From assembly GCA_012729335.1 (NCBI GenBank), contig JAAYDJ010000036.1, forward strand, positions 62,001-126,000: a stretch of 64,000 bases of DNA, read 5' to 3'. The stretch's first letter is position 1, and every line of letters begins with the position of its first letter. The notes beneath the pieces are model-generated. The model had not been told where the DNA came from, ran no database searches, and worked only from the letters and a program-made list of their open reading frames with translations. Source of the DNA: Bacteroidales bacterium (GTDB taxonomy: Bacteria; Bacteroidota; Bacteroidia; Bacteroidales; Prolixibacteraceae). The position numbers and the translations under genes are program-made. Shown here one piece after another: positions 8,298 through 62,187 of the stretch.

Positions 8298-9359
8298 ATG
8301 CGTTCCAAAACTCTTCTCTTTTTCTTTGTGCTGGCCGGGCTGGCCAGTATCACCTTCTTTGGTTGCCAACCCAAACAAGCCGCCACGGAGACCGCGAATG
8401 TGAAATACTACCGGTCGCTTCTTTTCAGTGAAACACCCTGGGATCTTGAAAGAGGTTCGCGGGAGCTTACTGCCACGGAAGCCCAAACCATCAACAACTT
8501 CAAATTCACTTACGACGACCAGAACCGCCTGGTGTCGGTCGAATACAACCGGAACGGGGTATTGCTTGATTACTCCTCATTGGGAGCGCCGAAAGTGGCT
8601 TACTCCTATGAAGGCAATCTTCAGAGGAAGCATTTCATAGGTTTGGAAGGCGATACCATTGAGCGTGACGGCGCTTATGTGTATGAATACACACTGGGAG
8701 AACAGGGTATGCGCACCACGCTGCGTTTTCTCGACAAGGCGGGACAACCTGTGGAAAACCGCAACAATATCCACAATTGGGTTTGGACGAAGATGCCCGA
8801 CGGGATGATCCGCGAGCTGAGGTACAATCTGGCCGGTGATTCCGTGGTCATGAATCCCTTCTGCCCCTTCTTTGAACTCCGCTTCACCTACGATGCCAAC
8901 GGCTATGTCACCCGCATGGCCAACTATGACCATGATACCCTTTACAACTGCACCGCCGAAAACTGCGGCGACATCGGCGTTTCCTATTTCGAATTTGTGA
9001 ACAATGAAGCGGGCGACCTGCTGGAGTTCTCGGTACATAATACCACCGGCAACCTCTCCAATCTTTACTGGGGCTGGGCCAAAAGGGTGAACCAGGTCGA
9101 TGAAAATGGCTATGTCGTTGAAACAGCTGTTTTCGACCAGGATGATGAGTACCTTGGCGGAAAGAATGTGCCGGTGACCCGGACCGAATACGATGCCCAC
9201 GGGGCGGTGGTCAGGCGCATCAACATGAACGAAAACCGTGAGGTGATCAACAGTCCGGCCGACGGTGTGGCTTACGTGGAATACTCCTACGATGAGCAGG
9301 GCCGCCGCACGGGTAGTGTCAGACTTGACAAGGACAAGGCCGAAGTGGTCAGCCAGTAA
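8298..9359 (+). CDS. Lipoprotein with YD/RHS-like beta-strand repeats, unknown function
   Basis: A 353-residue predicted lipoprotein: a hydrophobic signal ends in TFFGC (C23). The mature part carries several Tyr-Asp and Gly-rich motifs such as FTYDDQNRLVSV, FTYDANGYVTRM, EYDAHGAVVRR and SYDEQGRRTGS, about 14-20 residues each, resembling the YD repeats of RHS-type proteins and MORN-like antitoxin-type shells. They are spread out rather than strictly tandem. No catalytic motif was recognised. It has its own consensus -7 element and is followed after 11 bp by the rhodanese lipoprotein, so the two are probably co-transcribed. Function unknown. Confidence 0.75.
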   Translation: MRSKTLLFFFVLAGLASITFFGCQPKQAATETANVKYYRSLLFSETPWDLERGSRELTATEAQTINNFKFTYDDQNRLVSVEYNRNGVLLDYSSLGAPKVAYSYEGNLQRKHFIGLEGDTIERDGAYVYEYTLGEQGMRTTLRFLDKAGQPVENRNNIHNWVWTKMPDGMIRELRYNLAGDSVVMNPFCPFFELRFTYDANGYVTRMANYDHDTLYNCTAENCGDIGVSYFEFVNNEAGDLLEFSVHNTTGNLSNLYWGWAKRVNQVDENGYVVETAVFDQDDEYLGGKNVPVTRTEYDAHGAVVRRINMNENREVINSPADGVAYVEYSYDEQGRRTGSVRLDKDKAEVVSQ

Positions 9360-9370
9360 TTTCGGTTTCC

Positions 9371-10420
9371 ATGATCGCGAAGAGATTAATCACCCTGTTG
9401 CTGGCGGTTTACGTGGTGCAGGGGTGCGGTTCCGGGGGGCGCGGGGAGCAGGCACGTCAGGAGAGCCAGGAAGAGACGATATTGAAGGCTGCGCCCGCCG
9501 CCGCAGTGGAGATCAACGCCGAAGCCCTTCTCCTGCTAAAGGAACTGGAGCAAAACGGCGATTACGTCAATAGCCGTGATTTTCCCAGTCTTATCAAAGC
9601 TTCCCTGGTTTTTGAGGAGCTGGAAACCGGCAACCACATCATTGACCTGCGTCCTGCCGGTGAATTTGGCCGGGGCCATATCAAAGGGGCGGTGAACATT
9701 CCCTTTGAGGGGCTCCCCGAGTACCTGGAGTCGAAGATTAAACCCTTTGAATTTGACAGGATCATCCTGGTTTGCGGCTCGGGACAGGTTTCAAGCTACG
9801 CGGCCTCTCTGCTGCGGATGATGGGGTATGGCAATGTGTATGCCATGCGCTGGGGCATGAGTGCCTGGAATCCTGCCATTGCCGGGGAATACTGGCTGAA
9901 GGGACTCTCGGGAGCTTATGAGAACCGGCTGGAGACGGCCGACGTACCTGCAGCACCGGCAGGCGACCTGCCATCCCTTCATACAGGGCTCACTTCAGGC
10001 ACGGAAATCCTCGACAAAAGGTTCCGCCAGCTGATGACCGAAGGGGGTCAGGCGGCCCTGATTACCGCCGACGAGGTATTTGCCGACCCGTCAAAGTATT
10101 ACGTGATCAACTTTGAACGGAAAGATAAGTATGAGTCGGGGCATATTCCCGGCGCCGTAAGGTACAAACCTGCCGGTACCCTGGGGATCGCCACTGAAAT
10201 GCAGACCATACCACACGACAGACCGGTGGTTCTCTATTGTGGAACAGGCCACAACTCAGCCTTTGCCACAGCATATCTCAGGTTGTTCGGCTGGGATGCC
10301 AGAACCCTGGTCTATGGCAACAACGCCTTCATGTACAATAAGATGGTGACAGACCGGGCTGTCCTCTCCTGGCTTCCCTTCACACAGGAAGAGATCCATG
10401 AATACCCGGTCGTAAAGTAA
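9371..10420 (+). CDS. Lipoprotein with two rhodanese domains
   Basis: A 349-residue protein with a lipoprotein signal ending in VQGC (C19), so it should be anchored in the periplasm-facing membrane. Two rhodanese domains follow. Domain 1 (about residues 85-170) has IIDLRPAGEFGRGHIKGA and the active-site loop CGSGQVS with C135. Domain 2 (about 235-330) has FERKDKYESGHIPGA and CGTGHNS with C290. Both cysteines that would carry the persulfide are present, so sulfur transfer is plausible. The gene is convergent with a sulfur transport cluster that contains rhodanese-like proteins without cysteine, which suggests a shared thiosulfate or persulfide pathway. Donor and acceptor are unknown. Confidence 0.88.
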   Translation: MIAKRLITLLLAVYVVQGCGSGGRGEQARQESQEETILKAAPAAAVEINAEALLLLKELEQNGDYVNSRDFPSLIKASLVFEELETGNHIIDLRPAGEFGRGHIKGAVNIPFEGLPEYLESKIKPFEFDRIILVCGSGQVSSYAASLLRMMGYGNVYAMRWGMSAWNPAIAGEYWLKGLSGAYENRLETADVPAAPAGDLPSLHTGLTSGTEILDKRFRQLMTEGGQAALITADEVFADPSKYYVINFERKDKYESGHIPGAVRYKPAGTLGIATEMQTIPHDRPVVLYCGTGHNSAFATAYLRLFGWDARTLVYGNNAFMYNKMVTDRAVLSWLPFTQEEIHEYPVVK

Positions 10421-10534: not shown

Positions 10535-11041
10535 CTAGTCATCCCCTGAATCACCTTCCTGATTTCCGTCATGGGTGACCGGTTCCGGTCTGATCGTTGT
10601 ATCAGGCTGGAACTGGTATTTTAAGGGCTCTCCCCCGGAGCGTTCAAGGATAAAAACTCCCCGCACGCCTTGCTGGTGAAGGACCACCCACCCGGTGACG
10701 GCGGTGGCCGGATCGTCGGCCACGATAACCCATTTACGCTCCCCTGACGCAAGAGTGCCGGCAAACGCCCCGTCGGTCAGAGTCGCCAGGGTCACCTCCT
10801 GCACAGGATAGGAAGCGGTCAGGCTGTCTGGGGCCGGTGCTTCCAGCTTCAGAATGCCGGTCTCCCCTCCCAGGGAGGAGAGGTCCGATGGCTGAACATA
10901 GGCGGTACGCAGGGCCAGGGCTCGCGCCGCCTCCCCGGGATCTCCGGGCCACCTGTGATCCTTCAGGGTTTTTACCACCATCAGCACCAGCACCACCCCC
11001 GCCAGTACCAGCACCCCTCCCAGTTTTTTCATATTCCTCAT
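10535..11041 (-). CDS. Membrane-anchored degenerate rhodanese-like protein
   Basis: About 168 residues: one N-terminal hydrophobic segment (GGVLVLAGVVLVLMVV) followed by a periplasmic part. The C-terminal half, WVIVADDPATAVTGWVV then GVRGVFILERSGGEPL, has the strand-loop-helix pattern of a rhodanese domain, but the loop that should hold the cysteine reads DDPATA. I chose ATG 11041 because an AGGAG sequence sits 5 bp upstream; a longer form from 11068 would also fit. It is the last gene of the YeeE/YedE cluster, 46 bp after the preceding one. The rhodanese resemblance is my reading by eye. The ends are acidic (GNQEGDSGDD). Function unknown, perhaps a binding rather than a catalytic subunit. 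Confidence 0.6.
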   Translation of the reverse strand: MRNMKKLGGVLVLAGVVLVLMVVKTLKDHRWPGDPGEAARALALRTAYVQPSDLSSLGGETGILKLEAPAPDSLTASYPVQEVTLATLTDGAFAGTLASGERKWVIVADDPATAVTGWVVLHQQGVRGVFILERSGGEPLKYQFQPDTTIRPEPVTHDGNQEGDSGDD

Positions 11042-11086
11042 TGTGCTCCTCCTTTTCTGCCCGGCCATAGCCCGGCCAACCTTTGC

Positions 11087-11698
11087 TTATTCACAGCCAC
11101 CGTCGAGTTTGGCCTTTTCAAGCCTGCGGGAAACAAAAAGGGTCTCCCTGAAGCTGTCAGGCAGGGCGTTATACTGGTTAAAGAGTTTCCGGGCGTTGAA
11201 CCGCTGGGTGAAGAGGGCGTTTTCACGGGCCGAGATCCTTTCCCCCGTGAAGCTGCTCTGCATCACCGTCTCAAACCAGCCGTTAAGGCCGCCTTTCATC
11301 CTGAAATTCCGGGTACCCCCCACACCTGCGGAAAGGGCCAGGGCGGCGGCAGAAGCCTCATCCCCGTTGGAATAGAAGACGTTAAAACCTTCTTTGCGTA
11401 AAAGAAGTTCTCTGTGCCGGGCCAATGTCAATTCCTCCAGGGGGATCTGCAGAGCCCCTGGCAACCGGCAGGCCCCTGATTCCGCAAGGCTCCTGACGTC
11501 AATAAGGGTCATCAGGGGATCCTCCGCGTTGATCCGGCGGGCCACCTCATCGGGAGTCACCTCCAGGCTGTCGATGGCAGTCCACAACGCCAGCGCTTCC
11601 GGAGAAATCCTGAAACGGCTCACCTCCCTACCCGGGAAAAGGGCCAGAAACAGCCCAAGTAGTACCAGCAGAACGGATATTTTCACTCTCATGCTCAT
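11087..11698 (-). CDS. Rhodanese-like protein lacking the catalytic cysteine
   Basis: About 203 residues with one N-terminal membrane segment or signal (ISVLLVLLGLFLALFPG), then a rhodanese-like domain: LIDVRSLAESGACRLPGALQIP followed by the active-site strand NVFYSNGDEASAAAL. The position of the nucleophilic Cys is Ser, and the loop reads SNGDEA, so sulfurtransferase activity is unlikely. A long C-terminal tail of about 60 residues is not part of a rhodanese fold. Start: ATG 11698 or ATG 11692, both in front of the same hydrophobic segment; an upstream frame into the preceding gene was rejected. It sits 40 bp after the YeeE/YedE gene, so co-transcription is likely. It could bind a sulfur species rather than convert it. 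Confidence 0.72.
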   Translation of the reverse strand: MSMRVKISVLLVLLGLFLALFPGREVSRFRISPEALALWTAIDSLEVTPDEVARRINAEDPLMTLIDVRSLAESGACRLPGALQIPLEELTLARHRELLLRKEGFNVFYSNGDEASAAALALSAGVGGTRNFRMKGGLNGWFETVMQSSFTGERISARENALFTQRFNARKLFNQYNALPDSFRETLFVSRRLEKAKLDGGCE

Positions 11699-11738
11699 GC
11701 TTTGTTTTATTAACCTTTCCTGACCATCCTGGGGTAAA

Positions 11739-12368
11739 TTAGCTTCCTGCGGGGGGATATCCCTCACCATCGCGGGGGATTTCTTCGCGGGCGAATTTTT
11801 TCTCTGCCATTTCGGCCAGCCAGAACATGGCCACGGCAGCCAATATCAGCAGAAGGGTGAAGAGTTCGGGGGAGATCCCCAGAACCTCGTTTATTTTCAC
11901 CGGTCCCCGGTAATTTTTGAGGGCCAGGGGGCCGATCAGGGGCCAGGTTTCGGCGAAGAGGAAGGCGCCGGTGAGGCCACCCAGGAGATAGACCATGGCA
12001 TCGGTTTTTCCGATGGAAGCGGCACATACCCCCGTACCGGGGCAGAACCCCCCCATGATGAAGCCGGCTCCCATGATGACGCCACCGACAAGGGAGGCAT
12101 TCACGTAGTACTCATTCACAAAGACCAGGTTCAGGTCGAGAAGGCCGAAAAATCCGAGGAGCTGTGCACCCACCAGGGCTACGATGGCCGCAGTGAAAAA
12201 GACTTTCAGGACGGTGGTGTCATAGCCGTAAAACATGCCGGCCAACTTCCGGCTTGAGGAAAAGCCCCCCTGCTCAAGGGCATACCCGAATCCCACACCG
12301 ATGATCAGTGCAAACAGCAGGTCCACCCATCCGGGCAGCTGGAACAAAGTTGAAACAGGTCCTATCAT
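11739..12368 (-). CDS. YeeE/YedE family sulfur transporter, half-size unit 2
   Basis: A 209-residue inner-membrane protein with about five or six hydrophobic segments and the family motif GFCPGTGVCAAS (two Cys), preceded by FGYALEQGGFSSSRKL. The full-length E. coli homologue TsuA (YeeE) imports thiosulfate by relaying it along cysteines; in many bacteria the protein is split into two shorter subunits as here. The other half is encoded 77 bp upstream on the same strand. Together they would form one channel for thiosulfate or a related sulfur compound. It is followed by two rhodanese-like genes. The partner and exact substrate are inferred. Confidence 0.88.
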   Translation of the reverse strand: MIGPVSTLFQLPGWVDLLFALIIGVGFGYALEQGGFSSSRKLAGMFYGYDTTVLKVFFTAAIVALVGAQLLGFFGLLDLNLVFVNEYYVNASLVGGVIMGAGFIMGGFCPGTGVCAASIGKTDAMVYLLGGLTGAFLFAETWPLIGPLALKNYRGPVKINEVLGISPELFTLLLILAAVAMFWLAEMAEKKFAREEIPRDGEGYPPAGS

Positions 12369-12445
12369 GAGAAAAATGGTAATTTTCAGTAAACAATGAA
12401 TTTCTTTCCTTCCTCCGGTTACACCGCACTGCTACATCCCAATGG

Positions 12446-12958
12446 TCATATCCATAATCTCCGGAAGAACCAGGCAAAGAGGAATGCGGAGCCGAAGATG
12501 GCGGCCATGGTAACGAAGCCGGCCAGGGAGAGGACGGCCATCCCTGAGAGGGCGGCGCCGCTGGTGCATCCCCGGGCCAGCTGGGCCCCGTAAACAAAAA
12601 AGAGCCCTCCCAGAAAGGCGAAGAAAAGCCTTTTACGCCCCGAGACGTGGGGTGGCCGCTCATTCCGGAGCCGCAGGCGGCCCGAAACAGCCCCCGATAT
12701 AAAGCCACCAATCAGCAGTCCCGCCAATTCAATGGTCAGCCAGTTGGTCAACGGATTCCGGCCCTCTTCAAAATACCTGGCATAATACTCACGGCCAAGG
12801 GCATGCTCCCTGTCCACGGCCCCGACCGCCGACACCACACAGTATTTCATACCCCCACTGGCCCCCAGGCCCCTCCCCGATAAAAACATCGCCGAGAGCA
12901 GGACCAACCCCAACAGGGTCCCCGCCAAATAGGGATTCATATATTGCTTTCGTTTCAT
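12446..12958 (-). CDS. YeeE/YedE family sulfur transporter, half-size unit 1
   Basis: About 170 residues with roughly four hydrophobic segments and the family motif ARGCTSGAALSG near residue 130. It is the first gene of the sulfur cluster. Start at ATG 12958 (MKRKQYMNPY); a second in-frame ATG at 12940 would remove six residues. An open frame further upstream exists but its translation is not membrane-like and overlaps the divergent promoter region. An additional Cys lies in MKYCVVSAVGAV. Together with the next gene it would reconstitute a complete thiosulfate-type transporter. Confidence 0.85.
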   Translation of the reverse strand: MKRKQYMNPYLAGTLLGLVLLSAMFLSGRGLGASGGMKYCVVSAVGAVDREHALGREYYARYFEEGRNPLTNWLTIELAGLLIGGFISGAVSGRLRLRNERPPHVSGRKRLFFAFLGGLFFVYGAQLARGCTSGAALSGMAVLSLAGFVTMAAIFGSAFLFAWFFRRLWI

Positions 12959-59838: not shown

Positions 59839-62187
59839 ATGAAGAGTGAACTGTCAAACAGAAAACCGGTTAGTCGCGGGGGCGGCTATTTGCTGCTGCT
59901 GGCGGCAGTAATGCTGATGACCAGCGGATGCGGCCCTTCCCCCTCCACGCAGGAGAAGGAGGGATACCTTCTGGTGAGCCAGGCCAAAGGACCTGCCTTG
60001 GGGTATTCACCCCAATCGGGAGTGGTGCTGATCACCCAAGGCCGCAGGGTTTTCAAGGATCTCAACAGGAACGGCCTACTCGACCCGTACGAGGACTGGC
60101 GGCTTAGTGCCCGGGAGCGGGCGGTCAACCTGGCTTCCCTGATGAGCGTGGAACAGATTGCCGGACTGATGCTTTACAGCGGGCACCAATCCATTCCCAT
60201 GGCTGCCGGCGGCCGTTACGGGGCCACCTACAATGGTAAAGCTTTCTCTGAAAGTGGGGCCGCACCATGGGATCTCAGCGATCCCCAGAAGAAATTCCTC
60301 ACCGGGGACCATCTGCGTCATGTGCTCATCACCTCAGTGGAGAGCCCTGAGGTGGCCGCACGGTGGAACAACAATGCCCAGGCGCTGGTGGAGTCGACGG
60401 GGCTGGGGATTCCCGCCAACAACAGTTCCGATCCGCGGCATGGAAGTGATGCCTATGCCGAATACAATGCCGGTGCCGGGGGAAGCATTTCGATGTGGCC
60501 CGGAACCCTGGGTCTGGCCGCCACCTTCGATCCTGCGCTGATGCGCCAGTTCGGGGAGATTGCCTCCCGCGAATACAGGGCGCTGGGAATCACCACCGCC
60601 CTGAGCCCCCAGATCGACCTGGCTACGGAACCCCGCTGGAGCCGCTTTGACGGCACCATGGGTGAAGATCCCCGCCTGGCCGCCGACATGGCCCGGGCCT
60701 ATACCGATGGCTTCCAGACCTCCTCCGGAGAGAAAGAGATCGCCGGTGGCTGGGGCTATGAGAGCGTCAATGCCATGGTTAAACACTGGCCCGGCGGCGG
60801 AGCCGGAGAGGGAGGCCGCGACGCCCACTTCGGCTATGGTGCTTACGCCGTTTACCCCGGGAATAACCTCAAAGATCACCTGATCCCCTTCACCGAAGGG
60901 GCTTTCCGCCTTGAAGGCCCCACAGGAATGGCCTCCGCAGTGATGCCCTACTACACCATCTCCTGGAACCAGGATACCCTCCATGGCGAAAACGTGGGCA
61001 ACGCCTGGAACAAATACCTCATCACCGATCTCCTCCGCGAGAAATGTGGCTACGACGGGGTGGTATGCACCGACTGGATGATCACCAAAGACGCCCCCAA
61101 CGTCCACGAATTCTCTGGTAAATGCTGGGGAGTGGAACACCTCTCCGAGGCACAACGCCACTATAAGGCGCTTATGGCCGGCGTGGACCAGTTCGGCGGC
61201 AACAACGAAATGGCACCCGTTATGGAGGCCTACCGGATGGGCGTAGCCGAACATGGTGAAACCTTCATGCGAAAGAGATTTGAAGCATCGGCAGTCAGAC
61301 TGCTGCTCAACATCTTCCGCACAGGCCTCTTTGAAAATCCCTACCTTGACCCGGCAGAAACTGCCGCCACCGTCGGAAACCCGGAATTTATGAAAGCGGG
61401 GTTTGAAGCCCAGCTCCGGTCGGTGATCCTGCTGAAAAACAAAAACGGCGTCCTGCCACTGAACAAAGGCCTCAGGGTCTATATCCCGAAGAAACTTCTC
61501 CCCGGGGGAAGGAACTGGTTTGGCATGGAAACCCCGGAAAGGTGGGTCGATGCCCTGAGCCCGGAGATCGCCGGTCGTTATTTCACGCTGACCGACAAGG
61601 CGGAAGAAGCCGACGCAGCTCTGGTCTGCATCGACAGTCCGAAGGGGGGCACAGGGTATTCGCCTGAAGAGGCGGCACACGGCGGAAACGGGTACCTTCC
61701 CATCTCCCTGCAGTACGCCCCCTATACCGCTGTCGAAGCGCGTGATTCCTCGCTGGCAGGAGGAAGCCCCTTTGAATCCTTCACCAACCGCAGCTACCGG
61801 GGGAAAAGCGTGACCACCGCCAATGCCCATGACCTGAAAGCTGTCACCGACACCAGAAACCTGATGGGGGATAAACCGGTCATCGTGGTGGTGAAACTCT
61901 CCAATCCCATGGTCTTCAGTGAAGTGGAACCCGCTGCATCGGCCATATTGGTCCACATGGGTGTCCAGGATCAGGCCCTGCTTGACCTGCTCACCGGGGC
62001 CGCCGAACCTTCGGCACTCCTCCCGTTCCAGATGCCTGCCGATATGGCCACCGTCGAAAAACAGGCCGAAGATGTGCCCCGCGACCTCTCGTGCCATACC
62101 GACTCGGAAGGGAACAGCTACGACTTTGCCTTCGGCATGAACTGGAAAGGCGTCATCAGCGACCCACGCGTCGCCCGCTACAGATAA
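59839..62187 (+). CDS. Glycoside hydrolase family 3 lipoprotein with EF-hand-like loop
   Basis: 782 residues with a lipoprotein signal (LMTSGC, C31). An early DLNRNGLLDPYED loop has D74, N76, N78, D82 and E85 in EF-hand spacing, so it may bind calcium. The barrel has KHWPGGGAG and nucleophile D412 in VVCTDWMITKD; it contains a long insertion compared with the other GH3 enzymes (GGRDAHFGYGAYAVY). The alpha/beta domain follows (VILLKNKNGVLPL). There is no clear C-terminal FnIII domain and the acid/base region is different, so its specificity may differ (the GH3 group of exo-1,3/1,4-glucanases or xylosidases). Confidence 0.92.
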   Translation: MKSELSNRKPVSRGGGYLLLLAAVMLMTSGCGPSPSTQEKEGYLLVSQAKGPALGYSPQSGVVLITQGRRVFKDLNRNGLLDPYEDWRLSARERAVNLASLMSVEQIAGLMLYSGHQSIPMAAGGRYGATYNGKAFSESGAAPWDLSDPQKKFLTGDHLRHVLITSVESPEVAARWNNNAQALVESTGLGIPANNSSDPRHGSDAYAEYNAGAGGSISMWPGTLGLAATFDPALMRQFGEIASREYRALGITTALSPQIDLATEPRWSRFDGTMGEDPRLAADMARAYTDGFQTSSGEKEIAGGWGYESVNAMVKHWPGGGAGEGGRDAHFGYGAYAVYPGNNLKDHLIPFTEGAFRLEGPTGMASAVMPYYTISWNQDTLHGENVGNAWNKYLITDLLREKCGYDGVVCTDWMITKDAPNVHEFSGKCWGVEHLSEAQRHYKALMAGVDQFGGNNEMAPVMEAYRMGVAEHGETFMRKRFEASAVRLLLNIFRTGLFENPYLDPAETAATVGNPEFMKAGFEAQLRSVILLKNKNGVLPLNKGLRVYIPKKLLPGGRNWFGMETPERWVDALSPEIAGRYFTLTDKAEEADAALVCIDSPKGGTGYSPEEAAHGGNGYLPISLQYAPYTAVEARDSSLAGGSPFESFTNRSYRGKSVTTANAHDLKAVTDTRNLMGDKPVIVVVKLSNPMVFSEVEPAASAILVHMGVQDQALLDLLTGAAEPSALLPFQMPADMATVEKQAEDVPRDLSCHTDSEGNSYDFAFGMNWKGVISDPRVARYR

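Follow-up and report, generated by a model that had tools for sequence, protein, structure and literature searches.

What do two rhodanese-like proteins do beside a sulfur channel when both lack the catalytic cysteine? The question is raised by a 64,000-nucleotide stretch of DNA (the window; positions 62,001 to 126,000 of contig JAAYDJ010000036.1, assembly GCA_012729335.1) from a Bacteroidales bacterium of the family Prolixibacteraceae. In it, two half-size YeeE/YedE transporter genes, here called Y1 and Y2, are followed by genes for two membrane-anchored rhodanese-like proteins, A and B, as a first-pass annotation of the sequence had described. In the present work, we examine this gene set by profile searches, structure prediction and comparison with relatives. 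We find that A is not free of cysteine but carries its one invariant cysteine on a C-terminal Gly-Gly-Cys tail, and we argue that it is probably a periplasmic sulfur carrier, whose reactive cysteine would have moved from the rhodanese loop to an arm like that of SoxY.

Protein A matches the Pfam family Rhodanese (PF00581) at 32.6 bits, the cut-off being 22.2, and so do all 78 A-type proteins of our combined alignment, from which three truncated ones (loci L165, L167 and L168) were dropped. The additional family found, DUF3185, occurs in one of them (E 0.001), and SoxY (PF13501) has no match among the 78 at E 0.001. The AlphaFold2 model of A, with a predicted local distance difference test score (pLDDT) of 86.8, consists of a membrane helix (residues 3-20), a rhodanese domain (about 49-146) and two further helices (157-178 and 181-199). 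It superimposes on rhodaneses in VIA-align with a best Z of 13.9 and a root-mean-square deviation (rmsd) of 1.9 over 105 aligned residues; the VIA-align listings for A and B contain no SoxY, which excludes nothing.

The loop of A reads YSNGDEA. Across the 78 proteins the catalytic position is occupied by Ser in 42, Gly in 22 and Ala in 14, and by Cys in none, and the residues that follow it are conserved (Asn111 in 75/78 and Asp113 in 66/78). The C-terminus of A is LDGGCE, and Gly-Gly-Cys (GGC) is present in every aligned A-type protein (78/78). Among the A proteins from loci arranged like that of the window (window-type loci), the tail cysteine is found in 64/65, the 65th being cut by a contig end. 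The A alignment has ten invariant columns over 203 residues, and three of them are the tail. A chance origin of the tail is rejected, as none of 437 other open reading frames (ORFs) of at least 200 amino acids (aa) in the fetched loci carries the motif at its end, in a count of mechanical ORFs that includes spurious frames. Judged from the sequences, A is thus a rhodanese-fold protein in which the catalytic cysteine has been replaced by Ser, Gly or Ala and the sole invariant cysteine lies in the tail. The first-pass annotation had called both rhodaneses cysteine-free; this is right for B and for the loop of A, but it had to be given up for A as a whole once the alignment revealed the C-terminal tail.

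Two rhodanese-fold proteins of the structure databank can be compared with A. The A profile also finds 1qxn (E 4.5e-5), labelled sulfide dehydrogenase, which we take to be Sud of Wolinella succinogenes. Like A, as we read it, Sud is a rhodanese-fold sulfur carrier of the periplasm, and it is linked to polysulfide reduction. The difference is in the cysteine, which A bears on the tail and Sud in the loop. Alr3790 of Anabaena (3hix, 3ilm) has the rhodanese fold with the loop GAGDEQ instead of a cysteine motif; the entries listed give no function for it, and the likeness is one of fold and loop.

We now turn our attention to the channel. Y1 and Y2 correspond to the C-terminal and N-terminal halves, respectively, of YeeE/YedE (PF04143, Sulf_transp), both scoring above the cut-off of 27. 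Each has a single invariant cysteine, Cys131 in Y1 (RGCTSG; 14/14 proteins) and Cys109 in Y2 (GFCPGTG; 15/15 proteins), and Cys131 aligns with position 293 of Spirochaeta thermophila TsuA, the pore cysteine Cys293. According to PMC11582611, both Cys293 and Cys91 are indispensable in TsuA, and PmpA and PmpB are split YeeE halves with one cysteine each, at the positions of Cys293 and Cys91. Y1 and Y2 have the same make-up as the PmpAB type, namely two half-size Sulf_transp proteins, one for each half of full-length YeeE, with one conserved cysteine apiece. Since PmpA and PmpB are described there as split YeeE halves, the split channel by itself is already known. What differs is that Y1 and Y2 are longer (170 and 209 aa, as compared with about 130 in that paper), that they adjoin tailed or cysteine-less rhodaneses in the loci seen, and that Y2 is sometimes fused to A. 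A comparison of Y1 with Y2 by hhalign is not significant (1.7% probability). When the two are scored, as half-length proteins, on the TsuA/YeeE equivalog models NF041049 and NF052577, the cut-offs are not reached (Y1: 39.7 against 400 and 26.1 against 645 on this pair; Y2: 11.9 against 400).

Another point of comparison is TsuA-TsuB (YeeE-YeeD), whose channel has a cytoplasmic partner of the TusA family (PMC11073785). The two systems share a YeeE-family channel with a dedicated sulfur-handling partner that has a reactive cysteine, but in the present set this partner, instead of being a cytoplasmic TusA-family protein, is a rhodanese that is anchored in the membrane, probably lies in the periplasm and has its cysteine at the C-terminus. 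A search for the TusA family (PF01206) gave no match in the genome to which the window belongs (99.7% complete), while the control gave a match in 11 of 14 genomes, including a Bacteroides. The YTD clusters of PMC13047784 and PMC12998232 are a different set, in which YeeE is joined by two or three hypothetical proteins in addition to TusA and DsrE.

The remaining member of the proposed system is a lipoprotein with two rhodanese domains. Here the first-pass annotation holds, in that the predicted active-site loops of both domains retain their cysteine (VCGSGQ and YCGTGHN). There are three cysteines in each of 19 such proteins compared, that of the window included, and a simple lipobox pattern fits 47 of 64 lipoproteins. 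The layout of the locus is given in Table 1: Y1, Y2, A and B are four closely spaced genes on the minus strand, and a convergent pair on the plus strand encodes the rhodanese lipoprotein and a lipoprotein-like companion with YD/RHS repeats. This companion precedes the rhodanese lipoprotein in 53/54 loci with enough sequence, and two loci that lack B (L150 and L156) have a second copy of it. The start of A is taken as the likely ATG at 11698, and that of B as an ATG with AGGAGG before it. Scans for promoters (3 sites, 2.8 expected) and terminator-like structures (11, 6.4 expected) were not used.

Table 1. Features of the locus; positions are those of the window, and bit scores refer to the Pfam family named.
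Feature	Position	Strand	Support
Y1, half-size YeeE/YedE, 170 aa, PmpA-like C-terminal half	12446-12958	-	Pfam Sulf_transp 75.1 bits, profile positions 174-309
Y2, half-size YeeE/YedE, 209 aa, PmpB-like N-terminal half	11739-12368	-	Pfam Sulf_transp 57.8 bits, profile positions 3-161
A, membrane helix, rhodanese domain without loop Cys, two helices and LDGGCE tail, 203 aa	11087-11698	-	Pfam Rhodanese, AlphaFold2, VIA-align
Ser110 of A, rhodanese catalytic-Cys position	11369-11371	-	aligned with Cys of 6mxv
C-terminal arm motif of A, D-G-G-C-E	11090-11104	-	Cys202 at 11093-11095; GGC in 78/78
B, membrane helix and shortened Cys-free rhodanese-like domain, 168 aa	10535-11041	-	hhalign, AlphaFold2, VIA-align
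Lipoprotein with two rhodanese domains, loops with Cys	9371-10420	+	Pfam Rhodanese 106.6 bits, 2 stretches
YD/RHS-repeat companion, lipoprotein-like, encoded directly before the rhodanese lipoprotein	8298-9359	+	TIGR01643/PF05593 matches

Protein B has no Pfam match of its own in the window, and the Rhodanese family is matched by 19/60 aligned B proteins. Compared by hhalign, the B profile finds A at 5.9e-21 and the second rhodanese of the Psr-type loci described below, called B′, at 7.6e-22. The AlphaFold2 model of B (pLDDT 83.6) has a rhodanese alpha/beta fold and aligns with rhodaneses in VIA-align at a best Z of 9.5 (rmsd 3.1, 84 aligned), and Foldseek with this model returned nothing below E 0.001. 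Taken together, the Pfam matches, the profile comparison and the model indicate that B, too, has the rhodanese fold and is more divergent than A. The absence of such a fold from the two proteins, which had been named at the outset as a reason to abandon the first-pass interpretation, is thus not what the models of A and B predict. There is no conserved cysteine column among 62 B proteins, none in the loop columns of 60 (two truncated ones, of L125 and L127, were left out of the alignment) and no tail cysteine column in the 62. B is absent from L150 and L156, which retain Y1, Y2, A and both lipoproteins, and B is therefore not essential to the gene set. A cysteine-free docking role of the kind first proposed for both rhodaneses suits only B, for which we suggest it tentatively.

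Is the set a real unit, or an accident of one genome? We searched 140 genomes of the same family, counting as a close A any match of E 1e-30 or better. Such an A is present in 43 of them and B in 41, all among those 43; in the remaining two (G018 and G019) B is truncated by the contig (loci L125 and L127, matched by contig positions). Most genomes of the family are without the set, and those having it keep it together. Eighty named loci were fetched, the best of 126 confirmed; they were found by two A patterns, one taken from the rhodanese domain and the other from immediately ahead of the tail helix, and are not a random sample. Of these, 64 are window-type and 16 are of the Psr type, in which the counterparts of A and B are called A′ and B′. 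In the window-type loci with a long enough contig, we find Y2 in 59/59, Y1 in 57/57, B in 59/61 (the weak second rhodanese of L166 being counted as B), the lipoprotein in 57/58 and the YD-repeat protein in 53/54. The check that the first-pass annotation had asked for, conservation of the gene order in relatives, thus comes out in its favour: the order Y1-Y2-A-B-lipoprotein is nearly always kept where A is present.

The named hosts include Prolixibacteraceae (Draconibacterium, Maribellus, Mariniphaga) and other Bacteroidales. The nearest relative of the window's genome, L105, shows 52% identity in A and makes Prolixibacteraceae the most likely family of this genome. A tree built from 56 selected rows has the window-type A proteins in one clade (100/98), and 17/18 Y2-A fusions, one Psr-linked row (L208) being included under the fusion label, form another (100/98). 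A survey of the phylum covered 395 Bacteroidota genomes, 105 of which matched at E 1e-10 or better. Each of the best 30 matches, among them that of the window, ends in [G/E/D]GC, and Y1 and/or Y2 is adjacent in 29 of them; the weaker matches we take to be mostly ordinary rhodaneses.

The relatives are also found next to sulfur redox enzymes. In 15/16 Psr-type loci, PhsABC/PsrABC-like molybdoenzyme genes lie upstream, and the contig of the 16th is short. In the one Psr set that was scanned (L088), PhsA is the best model for the large subunit, at 483 bits and below the cut-off of 694, and the N-terminus of this subunit, RRDFIK, is Tat-like; we take it to be a twin-arginine translocation (Tat) motif. 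The window's own genome holds a second member of the system, on contig C16 (L065 9295-13429), in which an octaheme cytochrome and a cytochrome b are followed by Y1 and by a natural fusion of Y2 with A that has RGGC at its end. The octaheme cytochrome belongs to the tetrathionate-reductase family (TIGR04315, 560.9 bits, cut-off 375), and the cytochrome b is nearest to that of thiosulfate reductase (107.2 bits, cut-off 204). Just behind this set, L065 14247-16184 encodes a protein of 645 aa whose NapH-like ferredoxin portion scores below the model cut-offs; it is possibly the electron input of the octaheme/Y2-A set. Outside the phylum, plasmid 1 of Gemmatirosa kalamazoonensis (Gemmatimonadota; L215 5917-10925) encodes a two-stretch rhodanese protein followed by Y1, Y2 and an A-type protein with the loop YSEGG and the end RRRGC. 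The A-type gene is followed there by one for a class-V aminotransferase family protein.

On which side of the membrane, then, would A work? Of 18 Y2-A fusions, 16 have more positive charge in the linker leading up to the A helix than in the stretch beyond it, and the other two are ties; by this measure the A domain lies in the periplasm. The same side is indicated by the partners, namely the lipoproteins with a lipobox and the reductase subunit with its Tat-like start. For the stand-alone proteins the charge is indecisive, the N side being the more positive one in 11/16 A′, 33/60 B and 8/16 B′.

These observations lead us to propose that Y1-Y2-A-B and the tandem-rhodanese lipoprotein together relay sulfur on the periplasmic side of the inner membrane. 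The likely entry enzyme would be the lipoprotein, taking sulfane sulfur from thiosulfate or polysulfide onto a loop cysteine and passing it to the arm cysteine of A. The empty rhodanese pocket of A, together with its helical pair, may hold or steer the arm, which would offer the sulfur to the pore of Y1/Y2, where Cys131 of Y1 and Cys109 of Y2 would hand it on to the cytoplasm. B would be a tail-less accessory that aids the docking of A, and where the locus is of the Psr or octaheme type, sulfur would pass between the same arm of the A-type protein and the reductase. We assign this relay, with the lipoprotein loading the arm, A serving the channel and B as accessory, a probability of roughly 0.6. 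That A is a carrier of this kind has a good probability in its own right, and for an import of sulfur through Y1/Y2, where substrate and direction are deduced from the setting, we see an even chance. The idea of a relay around the channel, put forward by the first-pass annotation with the inactive domains as docking or holding sites, is thus retained as the best reading. What changes is the part played by A, which is itself the likely carrier.

The closest functional analogy is to SoxYZ. In SoxY, the sulfur-binding cysteine is located on a swinging arm, of which GGC is the functional motif (PMC11237559), and a transfer of sulfur from this cysteine along three cysteines of the YeeE-like transporter SoxT is termed conceivable in PMC11582611. 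Both systems would thus have a cysteine in a C-terminal Gly-Gly-Cys arm and a YeeE-like transporter as the proposed receiver. This is analogy and not homology, as the body of A is a rhodanese fold and not SoxY, A matches no SoxY model and the gene context is another. A search for SoxY in the window's genome gave no match, but its control was also silent, so nothing follows from it.

Several observations weigh against this proposal. The tail is a low-confidence part of the model (pLDDT 50 in the last block, with a loose end), and 23/65 A proteins have a second, unconserved cysteine at one position of the rhodanese part. In the channel, Cys109 of Y2 could not be matched to Cys91 of TsuA, as Y2, the Y2 profile and the fused Y2 stretch found no TsuA chain. 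The lipoprotein gene converges with Y1-Y2-A-B and so belongs to a separate transcript, and in one locus (L114) the rhodanese lipoprotein is missing. The positive-inside charge of stand-alone A is ambiguous, the N side being more positive in 13/62. In the Psr-type loci, B′ is without a tail in L176 (4807-5337; like B of the window) and has the motif GSC in L184. The other two subunits of the L088 enzyme score best with NrfC and NrfD, below cut-off, which leaves the substrate of the enzyme unsure, and the window's genome gave no PsrA match in a query that lacked a positive control. Finally, A′ and B′ of L190 stand directly behind PsrC with no Y1/Y2 between, and there the arm may serve the enzyme and not the channel.

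This last case leads to the alternative that survives best, in which the carrier arm acts as sulfur donor or acceptor for a periplasmic redox enzyme, Phs/Psr-like or octaheme, while Y1/Y2 transports a by-product, for instance sulfite or sulfide, or works as an exporter. Sud of Wolinella, with which we connect the 1qxn match of the A profile, acts together with polysulfide reductase. The Phs/PsrABC-like genes upstream of A′, the clustering of the octaheme cytochrome and the thiosulfate-reductase-like cytochrome b with a Y2-A fusion, and the arrangement of L190 all fit an enzyme as the client. There is no such enzyme beside the window locus, however, and the negative PsrA query, with the limit just given, points the same way. 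Moreover, the window-type loci keep both halves of the channel wherever this can be tested. We consider the alternative unlikely, if by no means far-fetched.

A second alternative concerns the tail itself, which could be a tag for anchoring, lipidation or disulfide assembly that is read by common machinery. It would account for the fact that different proteins within one locus share nearly the same tail. In the Psr-type loci, the tail cysteine is present in 16/16 A′ and 15/16 B′, and the tandem-rhodanese lipoproteins of L170, L174, L175 and L184 have a GGC tail that is nearly the same as those of the neighbouring A′ and B′. Over the 15 residues before the cysteine, A′ and B′ have a mean identity of 63% within a locus compared with 32% between loci, while their bodies are 19-34% identical; in L096 the two proteins agree in all of their last 16 residues. 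None of 20000 permutations gave a match as strong as the one within loci. This test used 22 of 23 loci, the tail-less L176 being left out, and since the loci are related the permutation count is no clean probability.

Such matching within a locus is what would be expected if the arms enter the same pocket, and a docking site shared by the arms explains it more simply than does a general tag. The latter is made unlikely by the distribution of AAGGC followed by a stop. In six genomes, scanned for the AAGGC form alone, there are 11 sites in five of them (G105 has none; two sites of G071 were matched by coordinates), of which nine are ends of A′ or B′ and two lie in short frames of 11 and 32 codons. 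In addition, the tailed proteins seen are all rhodanese-domain proteins, and A already has a membrane helix. A general tag therefore appears improbable to us, but the matched tails could also have arisen through concerted change by gene conversion.

A third alternative is that the C-terminal cysteine senses redox state or sulfur and either gates the channel or takes part in signalling, in the manner of SoxT1B, a YeeE-like protein with a signalling role (PMC11582611). A response-regulator-like gene encoding a 387-aa protein occurs within 3 kb downstream of A in 6/19 Psr- or octaheme-type loci of the family. Its product, read in L102, has a receiver-like start and an AAA-like part, and is presumably of the NtrC type. 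The gene is found on the strand of A, 110-797 bases further downstream, in L090, L094, L096, L099, L102 and L103. Against a sensor stands that this gene is near A in 0/16 named Psr-type and 0/83 window-type loci, in a search that covered this kind of regulator and no other, and that the operon contains another tailed rhodanese, which speaks for the handling of sulfur in bulk. The sensor is thus quite improbable. The last alternative, that A and B are inactive rhodaneses merely docking the transporter or holding thiosulfate, with an incidental tail cysteine, draws on the missing loop cysteines of both and on the tail-less B, and is highly improbable given that the tail cysteine is kept across three locus types and two phyla.

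Coming back to A as the carrier in a relay to the channel, we can ask what is new in it. The parts are of known kinds, namely a split YeeE, a rhodanese fold and a Gly-Gly-Cys arm, while their combination, in which a rhodanese with a moved cysteine is linked to the channel and to sulfur redox enzymes and the arms are matched within the locus, appears to be new. In searches of openly licensed papers we recognised no description of this gene set. The earlier remark that the exact set was not known from described systems thus applies to the combination, but not to the split YeeE. Going one step further, Bacteroidota and at least one Gemmatimonadota replicon may have evolved a Sox-like carrier chemistry independently, with A′, B′ and sometimes the lipoprotein of the Psr-type loci sharing a locus-specific arm that enters one pocket; judging from the sequences at hand, we would put this at slightly short of even odds.

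The import of sulfur into the cytoplasm is poorly understood, according to PMC11582611. The set described here offers a candidate sulfur donor that is linked genetically to a YeeE-type channel and has one cysteine that can be tested, and this set is carried by the genomes of type strains such as Draconibacterium orientale (L131). It also marks sulfur metabolism in Bacteroidota genomes such as the present one, in which no TusA-family partner was found. If the further reading of an independently evolved, locus-specific arm is true, the YeeE/PmpAB family would have a dedicated periplasmic sulfur donor, and periplasmic sulfur transfer would make use of a modular arm code. The set would also show that a catalytic cysteine can be relocated to a flexible tail without loss of the old pocket.

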